From the NCBI RefSeq assembly GCF_016482825.1, contig NZ_JAEMNV010000002.1, positions 124,001-188,000 of the forward strand: a DNA stretch of 64,000 nucleotides. Reading direction: 5' to 3'. This document shows, piece by piece, positions 4,137 through 31,199 of this stretch. Within the stretch, counting starts at the first letter, position 1. Each line of letters starts with the position of its first letter. The stretch comes from Antrihabitans stalagmiti (GTDB lineage: Bacteria > Actinomycetota > Actinomycetes > Mycobacteriales > Mycobacteriaceae). The notes beneath the pieces were generated by a model. That model had not been told where the DNA came from. It saw nothing but the letters and a program-made list of their open reading frames with translations, and did not search any database. The translations under genes and the position numbers were made by a program.

Positions 4137-4499
4137 TCACGTCAGTAGCCATTTCGTCGCCGCGGAACCTGCGATCGCCGCTGCGAGCCCGGCAGCCAGG
4201 CTGACTGTCACATTCGCAAGGGCAAAACGGTAGGCGCGGGCTTCGATCAGCCGCACCGTCTCGTAACCGAAGGTGCTGTAGGTCGTCAGCGCACCACAGA
4301 ATCCTATTCCTGCCAATGCCATCACCGAACTTGTCACGCTCGCTCCGACCAGACCACCGAGGATCGCGCACCCGATCAGATTGACCGTCAACGTTCCCCA
4401 TGGAAACAGGGTGTCACGGCGAGCTTGTACTTCCTTGTCGATCAAATAGCGGACAGGTGCTCCGACCATTGCTCCGACAACAACCAACGCTGCTGTCAT
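4137..4499 (-). CDS. crcB: CrcB/Fluc fluoride channel subunit (second copy)
   Basis: A 120-residue, four-helix protein of the Fluc/CrcB family, which exports fluoride through a dual-topology dimeric channel. Family marks are the R-Y pair after helix 1 (VRYLIDKE), the asparagine in TLTVNLIGC and the TTYSTFGYE stretch lining the pore. Its ATG overlaps the stop codon of the upstream crcB in ATGA, so the two are translated together. Tandem crcB genes in actinobacteria usually encode oppositely oriented subunits of a heterodimer, which is likely here (inference). Confidence 0.93.
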   Translation of the reverse strand: MTAALVVVGAMVGAPVRYLIDKEVQARRDTLFPWGTLTVNLIGCAILGGLVGASVTSSVMALAGIGFCGALTTYSTFGYETVRLIEARAYRFALANVTVSLAAGLAAAIAGSAATKWLLT

Positions 4500-4915
4500 A
4501 CCCGATCACCGCTTTTCGAACCGACCCCGCTGATCGCTCGCGTTGCCGCCATTCCGGCCATGACCGCAGTCACCGCTGCGAGGACCGTGCCGAACAGGTA
4601 CACCAGAGGCAATACGACATCCGCCGTGTCGAACAACGTGTGAACCTCGACTGCATAGGTCGAGAACGTGGTGAAGCCACCGAGAATACCGACTCCGAAG
4701 AACGGGCGGACCAATCGATGAACGGTCCACACTTCGGTGATCAGCACCATCAGCACACCGATCAGCAAACAACCGGTGGTGTTGATCAGCAACGTCGACC
4801 ACGGGATGTGACCGGGGACGGGCGGCAGCAGATGTCCGACGCCGTACCGAGAGACCGCTCCGATTCCACCCCCGACGGCAATCGCTCCGAGGACGGCCAG
4901 ATCCTGCTTCTGCAT
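4496..4915 (-). CDS. crcB: CrcB/Fluc fluoride channel subunit (first copy)
   Basis: A 139-residue Fluc/CrcB protein with GGGIGAVSRYGVG at the end of helix 1, LLINTTGC in helix 2, and GGFTTFSTYAVE in helix 3, all conserved pore features. The ATG at 4915 is preceded by GGAGTAGGAG. An out-of-frame ATG lies 4 nt upstream. Transcribed with the second crcB behind a candidate fluoride riboswitch (4948-5012), so fluoride should induce the pair. The assignment as fluoride exporter rests on the family and on the riboswitch. Confidence 0.94.
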   Translation of the reverse strand: MQKQDLAVLGAIAVGGGIGAVSRYGVGHLLPPVPGHIPWSTLLINTTGCLLIGVLMVLITEVWTVHRLVRPFFGVGILGGFTTFSTYAVEVHTLFDTADVVLPLVYLFGTVLAAVTAVMAGMAATRAISGVGSKSGDRV

Positions 4916-4947
4916 ACATGTACTCCTACTCCACCCGGTAACGCGGG

Positions 4948-5012
4948 CCTACTCGAGTAGGGACCGTTAGCGGCGGGAACCGCGGTTGAAAAACGACGAG
5001 CCCCAACGCCGC
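4948..5012 (-). promoter_or_regulatory. Candidate fluoride (crcB-motif) riboswitch, divergent
   Basis: On the minus strand from 5011, CGGCG TT GGGGCT CGTCG reproduces the first part of the fluoride aptamer with the same spacing as the known Thermotoga RNA. CGGCG can pair with CGTCG (pseudoknot). GGGGCT can pair with GGTCCC (4965-4960). AACC follows, then a GCGG-TTC-CCGC hairpin (4983-4974), and then CGCTAACGGTCCCTAC in place of the usual AGCUGAUGAUGCCUAC. Two ligand-site segments differ: GAUG is GTTG and UGAUG is TAACG. CCTACTC (4961-4955) can pair either with GAGTAGG in the linker (4954-4948) or with the GAGTAGG of the ribosome-binding site (4931-4925), a plausible translational switch. The position directly upstream of crcB supports the call. 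Confidence 0.72.
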
Positions 5013-5053
5013 ACCCGTTTATGTTAGACCGCGCGCGGACCGAAGGCCCAGCC

Positions 5054-5680
5054 TTACAGCAGTCGAAACTGCAAGACCGCAATGACGTCGGAGAGCGCAT
5101 CGGCCAGTACGTGCAATCTTGTCGTCGGCCCCGCAGCCGAGAGCACCTTCTGTCTGTCGGACTCGCCGATCGGCAGGCCGGATGCCAGTGCGAACGAACG
5201 TGGTGTCGGTTCCGATACCAATGGGGGGTCGGCAAATGTCGGCACTGGCGCACCGGATTTCGCAGCGAGATCGTGCCAGCTCGCTTCCAGTTCGTCGGTC
5301 AACTCGCCGACTCGTGCGAGGGCGGCGGCTGGATCCCCGTCCGGCTCGTCGGGCCAGAATTCCACTTCCGCCCGCGGGTAAGGATCGTCGAGCAGCCACC
5401 GGACGATGCGCAATCGCTGCTCACCGACGGCAATGATTCCGAACCGACCATCCGGTAGCTCGACGCAGGACCCGATCAGCGCTGCCGTCCCGACGAGAGC
5501 GCGCTCGTCACCTCCGCCGACTTCACGCCCGCGGGTGATGAGCACGACCCCGAAGCGCGGCTGCGGCGCAGCGAGGCACGCCTGGATCATCGCGACGTAG
5601 CGAGGTTCGAAGATCTGCAGGGGTAGCCGTTCACCAGGTAGTAGCGCGGCCCCGAGGGGAAACATCGGCATGATTTCCAC
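5054..5680 (-). CDS. LON N-terminal (substrate-binding) domain protein
   Basis: The 208-residue protein is a stand-alone Lon N-terminal domain (PF02190): it opens with MPMFPLGAALLPGERLPLQIFEPRY, the family signature, followed by the beta-rich LVGTAALIGSCVELPDGRFGIIAVGEQRLRI region and a helical C-terminus. There is no AAA+ or protease part, so it is not a Lon protease; stand-alone members are thought to bind peptides or assist proteolysis, but their role is unproven. The GTG start lies 7 nt after TATACC (5693-5688) without a ribosome-binding site, suggesting a leaderless transcript. The palindromic repeat at 5723-5768 separates it from the P450 gene. Confidence 0.85.
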   Translation of the reverse strand: MEIMPMFPLGAALLPGERLPLQIFEPRYVAMIQACLAAPQPRFGVVLITRGREVGGGDERALVGTAALIGSCVELPDGRFGIIAVGEQRLRIVRWLLDDPYPRAEVEFWPDEPDGDPAAALARVGELTDELEASWHDLAAKSGAPVPTFADPPLVSEPTPRSFALASGLPIGESDRQKVLSAAGPTTRLHVLADALSDVIAVLQFRLL

Positions 5681-29782: not shown

Positions 29783-29787
29783 TGCTG

Positions 29788-30158
29788 TGGAGCTGCCGGG
29801 AATCGAACCCGGGTCCTCCGCCGCATTTCCAGGGCTTCTCCGTGTGCAGTCCGCTAGGTCTCTACTTGGATCTCCTGGTCTCGCGAACAAGCCAGGATGA
29901 CGATCCCAGTCGCTGTTTGATGTCCCGCTCGATTCCGCGACCGAATCGATTGGTAAAGCCCTCTAGCTGATGCCAGTACCCGGACCGAGGGCGAACCCGG
30001 ACTGACAGACACGCTCTAGGTGCTTTTAGGCAGCGAGAGCGTAGTCGCGCTGATTGGAATCGGCGCTTAATTGGTTGCAATGACGCTTACGGTGGTCTCT
30101 TGCCTGCACCGACACGCTTCCCCTGAATCCACGTACAAAGTCGAAACCGTTCAGCCCC
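29788..30158 (-). ncRNA. ssrA: Transfer-messenger RNA (tmRNA)
   Basis: Minus-strand RNA of about 371 nt. The 5' end GGGGCTGAACGGTTTCGACT (from 30158) is the conserved tmRNA start. Its first seven bases pair with CAGCTCC at the 3' end, next to the T-arm sequence GGGTTCGATTCCCG; CCA is not fully encoded. The tag reading frame at 30064-30026 encodes ADSNQRDYALAA followed by TAA, with GCC as resume codon; the tag differs by one residue from the M. tuberculosis tag (from memory). tmRNA with SmpB rescues stalled ribosomes. TAGACT (30193-30188) upstream is a candidate -10 that would leave a short 5' leader for processing. smpB lies 8 kb away, separated by the liv operon. Confidence 0.97.
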
Positions 30159-30410: not shown

Positions 30411-31199
30411 TTGCTGGAGATTCGAAGTCTCGAGGTCGTCTACGAGGACGTCGTTCTCGTCTGCAAAGGCGTCAGTCTCGAGGTCCCCGCCGACGGTATC
30501 GTCGCCTTGCTCGGCGCGAACGGAGCAGGCAAAACGTCAACGCTTCGTGGCATCACAGGATTGCTCGACACCCATCGCGGCAAGATCACCGCCGGGTCGG
30601 TCAGCGTCGACGGCAAGACGATCACCGGCGCCGACCCGGCGACCGTCGTCACCTCCGGCATCAGCCAGGTCATGGAGGGCCGCCGGATTTTCGTCGAGTT
30701 CACGATCGAAGAGAACCTCCGAGTCGGAGCGCACACCCGCGACCGCGGCAGCATCGCCGCCAACCTCGACCGCGTCTACACGATGTTCCCGGTGCTTGCC
30801 CAACGCAGAGGCGAACGCGCCGGCTATCTCTCCGGTGGTGAACAGCAGATGCTCGCCATCGGTCGCGCACTGATGGCCGAGCCCAAGTATCTGTTGCTAG
30901 ACGAACCGAGTCTCGGCCTGGCGCCCCTGGTCGTCGCCCAGATTCGGGACCTCATCGTCGAGATCAATCGCGCAGGCACCGGCGTGCTCTTGGTCGAGCA
31001 GAACGCAGCGATGGCCCTGGCGATCGCAACACACGGCTATGTGATGGAAAACGGAAAGGTTGTACTCGACGGTCCGGCCGAGCAATTACGGTCGAACTCC
31101 GACATTCAGGAGTTCTATCTCGGGCTCGGTGCCGAAGGCAGCGCGTCGTCGTACCGCGACCTCAAGCATTACAAGCGTCGCAAGCGGTGGGCATCATGA
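30411..31199 (+). CDS. livF: Branched-chain-amino-acid-type ABC transporter ATPase LivF
   Basis: A 262-residue ABC ATPase of the LivF type: Walker A GANGAGKT, signature LSGGEQQ, Walker B LLLDEPSLGLAP and the H-loop region VEQNAAMALAIA; a 35-residue C-terminal extension ends with basic residues. It energises import across the membrane together with LivG. The TTG start at 30411 follows AGAGGGGG with 5-nt spacing. The frame is open back to 30252 only because it reads through hairpin repeat C. First gene of a six-gene operon (livF-livG-acyl-CoA ligase-livH-livM-binding protein). The cargo is probably not simply leucine, given the embedded ligase. Confidence 0.93.
   Translation: MLEIRSLEVVYEDVVLVCKGVSLEVPADGIVALLGANGAGKTSTLRGITGLLDTHRGKITAGSVSVDGKTITGADPATVVTSGISQVMEGRRIFVEFTIEENLRVGAHTRDRGSIAANLDRVYTMFPVLAQRRGERAGYLSGGEQQMLAIGRALMAEPKYLLLDEPSLGLAPLVVAQIRDLIVEINRAGTGVLLVEQNAAMALAIATHGYVMENGKVVLDGPAEQLRSNSDIQEFYLGLGAEGSASSYRDLKHYKRRKRWAS

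Follow-up and report, generated by a model that had tools for sequence, protein, structure and literature searches.

A crcB leader of Antrihabitans stalagmiti and its actinomycete relatives as a candidate variant of the fluoride riboswitch

The window, the whole stretch of DNA analysed, is 64,000 nt long and covers positions 124,001-188,000 of contig NZ_JAEMNV010000002.1 of Antrihabitans stalagmiti. Its minus strand carries two tandem crcB genes (Table 1), the only crcB matches in the genome. Upstream, at 5054, is the end of a gene whose product has a LON substrate-binding domain. Read on the minus strand from 5026 to 4913, the intervening leader consists of TAACAT, CGGCG-U-U-GGGGCU-CGUCG, UUUUUC, AACC, GCGG-UUCCCG-CCGC, UAAC, GGUCCC-UAC, a linker bearing GAGUAGG, and GAGUAGGAG, which stands 7 bases upstream of the crcB1 ATG. 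A preliminary description had compared this leader with the fluoride aptamer, and the elements it named (pseudoknot and stem strands, AACC, a small hairpin, TAACG at 4969-4965 and CCTAC at 4961-4957) are present where it placed them on the minus strand. Both of its helices exist under exchanged names: the literature calls CGGCG/CGTCG hairpin P1 and assigns GGGGCT/GGTCCC to the pseudoknot.

The hexamer TAACAT may be a -10 box. Among 112 copies of the leader, TANNNT occurred at a frequency of 34-53% in 25-nt stretches up to 50 nt upstream and of 1-4% from 40 nt outward. A sigma-70 scan gave no promoter, no transcription terminator was found within 4850-5150, and a search with the leader gave no related plasmid copies at E 1e-3. 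Elsewhere in the window, a tmRNA gene (29785-30158, minus strand; RF00023, 140 bits) was the sole Rfam match at gathering score, and 30742-30764 resembles the P3 portion of the motif at 18.6 bits (E 0.15), probably by chance.

Table 1. Features of the crcB leader and genes in the window (A1 and A3, alignments and R2, covariance model, described in the text)
Feature	Position	Strand	Remark
Variant aptamer core, 55 nt	4957..5011	-	Model R2 match
P1 5' strand, CGGCG	5007..5011	-	Partner 4994-4998; helix 98.6% paired in 101 distinct A3 rows
P1 3' strand, CGTCG	4994..4998	-	Partner 5007-5011; one G-U pair in the window
Position 6: U in the window, mostly G in relatives, A in the known aptamer	5006	-	
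Pseudoknot 5' strand, GGGGCT (P1 loop, positions 8-13)	4999..5004	-	Partner 4960-4965; 98.5% paired
Pseudoknot 3' strand, GGTCCC (positions 42-47)	4960..4965	-	G8-C47 in 143/143 copies
Joining segment AACC	4984..4987	-	AA invariant in the 28 A1 sequences
P3 hairpin GCGG-TTCCCG-CCGC (GCGG 4983-4980, CCGC 4973-4970)	4970..4983	-	Two-sided changes at all five helix pairs
Positions 38-41, TAAC (UGAU in the known aptamer)	4966..4969	-	Letter tally, 143 copies
U48, which forms the linchpin with A40 in the known aptamer	4959	-	U in 142/143 copies
CCTACTC, aptamer 3' end, doubling as anti-Shine-Dalgarno strand	4955..4961	-	Own and swapped pairing energies, 116 copies
GAGTAGG, linker copy, short local hairpin of -4.3 kcal/mol	4948..4954	-	No counterpart in the leader of the intact congener
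GAGTAGGAG, Shine-Dalgarno region	4923..4931	-	Paired with aptamer 3' end in minimum-energy fold (predicted off state)
Second GAGTAGG, in the ribosome-binding site	4931-4925	-	
TAACAT, possible -10 box, 9 nt 5' of the aptamer	5021..5026	-	Suggested by sequence
crcB1, Fluc fluoride exporter family	4496..4915	-	Pfam CRCB 92.1 bits (cut-off 32.9)
crcB2, start overlapping the crcB1 stop (ATGA)	4137..4499	-	Pfam CRCB 91.6 bits

Model searches and covariation

The fluoride riboswitch model of Rfam, RF01734 (crcB RNA motif), has a gathering cut-off of 34 bits. It gave no match in the window at that cut-off and none when 301 bases were searched with E values up to 10 allowed, so the covariance-model check put forward in the preliminary description came out negative. 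An Rfam scan of 20 variant loci likewise returned no family at the motif position. Relatives were collected by a CrcB1 scan that confirmed 301 loci, of which the best 80 were taken; many showed the same leader pattern. Model R1 was built from 28 sequences (alignment A1), the window included, and model R2 from 25 sequences, with the window and its congener left out. At the window copy R2 scored 56.1 bits, with an E value of 1.5e-6 across the 6.4-Mb genome and of 1.5e-8 within the window alone; this was the only significant site, the runner-up in the genome reaching 21.4 bits.

The motif has the P1, pseudoknot and P3 architecture of the known aptamer, and its pairings are preserved and covary across actinomycetes, so that the preliminary description's ground for abandoning the motif, a lack of homologues keeping the pairings, clearly does not apply. 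Within A1, 99.3% of cells were paired and two-sided changes occurred in 7 of 16 pairs. In alignment A3, with 101 distinct rows pooling variant and known forms, the paired share was 97.9% and two-sided changes occurred in 12 of 17 pairs; two-sided cells numbered 142 against 22 in shuffles, with none of 500 shuffles as high, and controls with a slid structure were 32-51% paired. The A3 counts for pseudoknot and P3 lean upward because that alignment was fitted to the pseudoknot and P3 of the model; P1 and pair 6.38 lay outside the model used for the fitting. Pair 13-42 was read in A3 as C-G (47), U-G (30) and U-A (24).

A chance resemblance in GC-rich DNA could be argued from the missing RF01734 match and from the plain fold energy of the window, which equals that of shuffles (z 0.12, by a program that does not score pseudoknots). 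The covariation and the genome-wide E value obtained with R2, a model that excluded the window, contradict it, and a chance motif was rejected as exceedingly improbable. P1 survived in no more than 11 of 117 copies when the minimum fold was computed without pseudoknots. An alternative helix seen in plain folds, 2-6/34-38, found no support as an evolved feature: most variants can form it, with 4.72 of 5 pairs over 110 copies, but swapped strands fit as well (4.71).

RF01734 and the variant model R1 partly recognize each other's sites. RF01734 found 17 of 20 short variant loci, all below its cut-off (12.3-24.8 bits), and missed L213, L221 and L222 even at E 10; it was also below cut-off at R1 matches in two genomes (G027, 23.5 bits; G056, 19.2 bits). 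Of 35 RF01734 loci, some of which overlap and a few of which are intermediates, 27 had their RF01734 site met by R1, a model built on the variant only (E up to 10, 12.3-43.9 bits); R1 missed eight (L002, L004, L007, L010, L169, L173, L177 and L180). The two registers were identical in three alignments, and copies with mixed letters stand between the forms.

Letters of the fluoride pocket

In the known aptamer, A6.U38 is a reversed Watson-Crick pair, according to PMC11586693 (position 6 is numbered A10 in PMC10687018), and A40.U48 is the reversed Hoogsteen linchpin described in PMC8752731. Among 143 distinct copies, 6.38 was G.C in 108 and A.U in 30, with G.U, U.U, C.C, A.C and A.G once each; the U.U copy is that of the window, and of these five odd copies L009 loses its register at the 3' end, while the 5' half of L162 is scrambled. 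Positions 39/41 read A/C in 100 copies, G/U in 25, G/C in 11, A/U in 6 and A/G in 1. G8 and C47 are invariant, U48 is kept in 142 copies, A40 in 141 and U7 in 138, and both linchpin letters occur in the window and its relatives. The window therefore lacks the reversed Watson-Crick A6.U38, and the segments GAUG/UGAUG of the known aptamer are replaced by GUUG/UAACG in the window and mostly by GGUG/CAACR in the relatives. That a conserved pocket is altered in sequence, as first proposed, is borne out by the comparison across actinomycete relatives; the particular letters GTTG and TAACG are correct for the window, while the wider family mostly has GGTG, and T at position 6 occurs, among the 143 copies, in the window only.

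Beyond these letters, variant and RF01734 share the order of P1, pseudoknot and P3, the AAC joining segment, U7, G8-C47, A40 and U48, a place ahead of crcB, enolase and pyrophosphatase genes, and a 3' end common to aptamer and expression platform. They differ in A6.U38, which is mostly G6.C38 in the variant (U.U in the window), in G39, mostly A, and in U41, mostly C; the variant pseudoknot is nearly fixed as GGGGCY/RGUCCC, and the score falls below the Rfam cut-off. By the letters and score compared, the leader falls outside RF01734 in the present form of that model, although by the comparative evidence it appears to work in the manner of a fluoride riboswitch.

Covariation alone separates 6.38 only weakly from 6.41, which mimics it: sliding by three columns gave 96% paired as against 97%. 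A Watson-Crick fit was found for 6.38 in 138 of 143 copies and for 6.41 in 134; in six copies 6.38 is kept despite a different letter at 41, and in two the reverse holds. As the 6.38 signal is common to 6.41, the choice of 38 as partner rests on the published structures. Exchanges between A.U and G.C numbered four on a poorly resolved CrcB tree (112 rows, 109 labelled); for the A.U group, starred branches made at least two necessary. In tRNA, the Levitt pair 15.48 is a tertiary pair of reversed Watson-Crick type in which G.C and A.U replace each other. The exchange at variant 6.38 may be likened to it by analogy only, the RNA and its function being different.

Letters at altered positions are important in the Bacillus cereus aptamer, a point against a fluoride-binding variant. 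The U41A change leaves that aptamer unresponsive to fluoride (PMC11077080), and the residue matching U41, by the numbering matched here, has hydrogen bonds strengthened by fluoride (PMC8004769). In published work the fluoride sits on Mg2+ ions that are bound by backbone phosphates, so changes of pocket letters need not abolish binding and may tune it.

Pairing with the ribosome-binding site

For 116 variant copies, the 3' end of the aptamer plus six bases was searched for pairing with the downstream stretch. In 109 copies the best partner was a site that contains GG and has a start codon no more than 16 nt further on, and the energy of pairing between the 3' end and the Shine-Dalgarno region averaged -15.09 kcal/mol for own partners as against -12.68 for swapped ones (300 swaps, sd 0.19, best -13.15). 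An alternative pairing of an aptamer strand with the Shine-Dalgarno region is thus a feature of the family. In 110 of 117 copies the plain minimum fold sequesters the Shine-Dalgarno region in a pairing with the 3' end of the aptamer. For the window, freeing it cost 7.1 kcal/mol (from -35.8 to -28.7) in a pseudoknot-free model, and the sum of P1 and P3 (-20.8) with the bare pseudoknot duplex (-8.1) comes to about -28.9, some 7 kcal/mol above the off fold. In this modelling off would be the default state, and the ligand would have to pay for on.

Since the pseudoknot and anti-Shine-Dalgarno strands share 4961-4960 and adjoin U48, the two states are mutually exclusive. This exclusion, the fold energetics and the function of the genes together suggest a switch turned on by fluoride: in its absence the 3' end CCTACTC would pair with the Shine-Dalgarno region and block translation of crcB. 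The CCTACTC switch of the preliminary description is upheld in its pairing with the ribosome-binding site, which covaries; the special role it gave to two identical GAGTAGG copies is not supported. A conserved role of the linker GAGTAGG likewise lacks support, the leader of an intact congener having only the copy in the ribosome-binding site. Local hairpins below -5 kcal/mol at the aptamer 3' end, of differing kinds, were present in 9 of 116 variants, the value for the window being -4.3.

Shine-Dalgarno pairing alone could give control, and the leader might on that ground be a conserved protein-binding or thermometer-like translational element with no ligand-binding aptamer. Such an element would not account for a pseudoknot that is conserved, for the linchpin letters or for the resemblance to RF01734, and is considered very improbable. 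Taken together, the comparisons make it very probable that the crcB leader family is a fluoride-ON, translation-controlling actinomycete variant of the fluoride riboswitch. Its pocket would then be rewired, the reversed Watson-Crick A6.U38 being replaced by G6.C38 in most relatives and G39/U41 mostly by A39/C41.

For the window copy itself the case is less strong. Degenerate scraps of the motif were seen by eye ahead of crcB in the congeners G001 (L228) and G003 (L227), where R2 gave no match, and the riboswitch seems to be under loss within the genus. The window copy may be weakened, given U6.U38, the extra linker GAGTAGG and the mere scraps in two of three congeners, and it may be an intermediate of this loss. 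A decaying relic that no longer switches, within a family of genuine fluoride riboswitch variants, is accordingly a possibility of some weight, though not the favoured one, and the competing hairpin added by the linker repeat agrees with it. Against decay, the window keeps its three helices, A40, U48, G8-C47 and the pairing with the Shine-Dalgarno region intact, the change in P1 makes a G-U pair and no break, and the third congener (G002) has an intact copy scoring 65.5 bits with R2. On balance the window copy is somewhat more probably a working riboswitch.

Downstream genes, distribution and significance

Among 394 genomes sampled from the class, R1 matched 65 at E up to 0.01, including a few that had contributed seed sequences, and RF01734 exceeded its cut-off in 11. 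With the limit set at E 0.1, R1 also matched 11 of 61 relatives; in the best 80 of 301 CrcB1 loci it gave 48 matches, two being known-type sites (L015, L028). In a phylum sample of 346 genomes R1 matched 11, seven inside the class and four outside; the four outside carry A6, U38 and U41, so the variant is confined to Actinomycetes in that sample. Six of the 11 genomes with RF01734 over cut-off had an R1 match elsewhere with G6.C38 (with U41 in G082), as against any R1 match in 59 of the 383 other genomes (Fisher p 0.004, for genomes that are not independent).

The 72 matches of the class sample, window included, comprised 67 with A40 and C41, among which 62 had G6.C38 and two A6.U38. Two of the 67 were cut by contig ends, leaving 65 copies scored for downstream genes. 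The crcB gene was directly downstream in 55, second behind a Usp gene in one (L139) and absent in nine; two CrcB domains lay downstream in 55 copies, and the window copy likewise precedes tandem crcB, in the position of a leader of fluoride-resistance genes. For six of the nine copies without crcB the downstream product was assigned: an enolase, three MFS proteins, a dynamin-like GTPase and a pyrophosphatase, the last preceded by an A6.U38/C41 copy. In a set of 30 known-type sites, 21 lacked crcB within 250 nt, some of these being close to contig ends.

Three known-type sites and two variants share about 13 kb in genome G170, which is probably that of Jiangella anatolica (L030); in this fluoride island (L232, contig 201, 49000-68900) the known-type sites precede MutS-domain, DUF190 and NUDIX genes and the variants precede crcB-type genes. 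Four sites are clustered on contig 12 of G218 (128000-143000, L233), two over the RF01734 cut-off and one just below; one over-cut-off site is ahead of a DUF211 gene and a mixed-letter copy is ahead of a pyrophosphatase gene. In G011 (L236/L135), of the same family as the window, a variant copy is immediately 5' of an enolase gene. At two places in G070 (L234, 395-611; L235, 10653-10935), known-type and G6.C38-type sites stand back to back, diverging, in one intergenic region.

A variant that controls crcB in response to something other than fluoride, for instance a different anion or a metal complex, would fit pocket letters 6, 38, 39 and 41 mostly unlike those of the known aptamer, and the presence of both forms in some genomes. 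This reading is nevertheless very unlikely, as the copies are mostly ahead of crcB and others ahead of enolase and pyrophosphatase genes, and mixed-letter copies join the two forms; exporters, enolase and pyrophosphatase are named as fluoride-riboswitch genes in PMC11139923. With fluoride retained as the favoured ligand, a more specific proposal can be offered only tentatively: a distinct actinomycete subclass with a rewired pocket (G6.C38, A39, C41) might differ in affinity or selectivity and provide a graded response in genomes having two forms, the variant ahead of the exporter and the known type mostly ahead of other genes.

No description of the variant form was found in the open-access literature searched, as far as its texts were available; the founding papers on the fluoride riboswitch lay outside that search, and an earlier mention is possible. 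The crcB motif is described as widespread in PMC2864571. According to PMC13273304, 1901 sequences drawn from RF01734 were assayed there, a set which, given its origin, would miss the variant form. The Pseudomonas syringae and Burkholderia pseudomallei riboswitches named in that source are likewise translational and without a terminator; they are RF01734-derived, and the likeness drawn here is in the level of control. In PMC11139923, extensive riboswitch regulation is reported for Streptomyces cattleya, and only about 15% of Fluc genes are given as riboswitch-controlled.

If the proposed reading is true, that 15% figure could rise, and fluoride sensing by RNA would have been undercounted in a large, industrially used group, where the variant was matched in 65 and RF01734 in 11 of 394 genomes. 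The variant and mixed forms would also constitute a natural set of pocket changes, from which it may be asked which letters of the ion pocket are truly needed.
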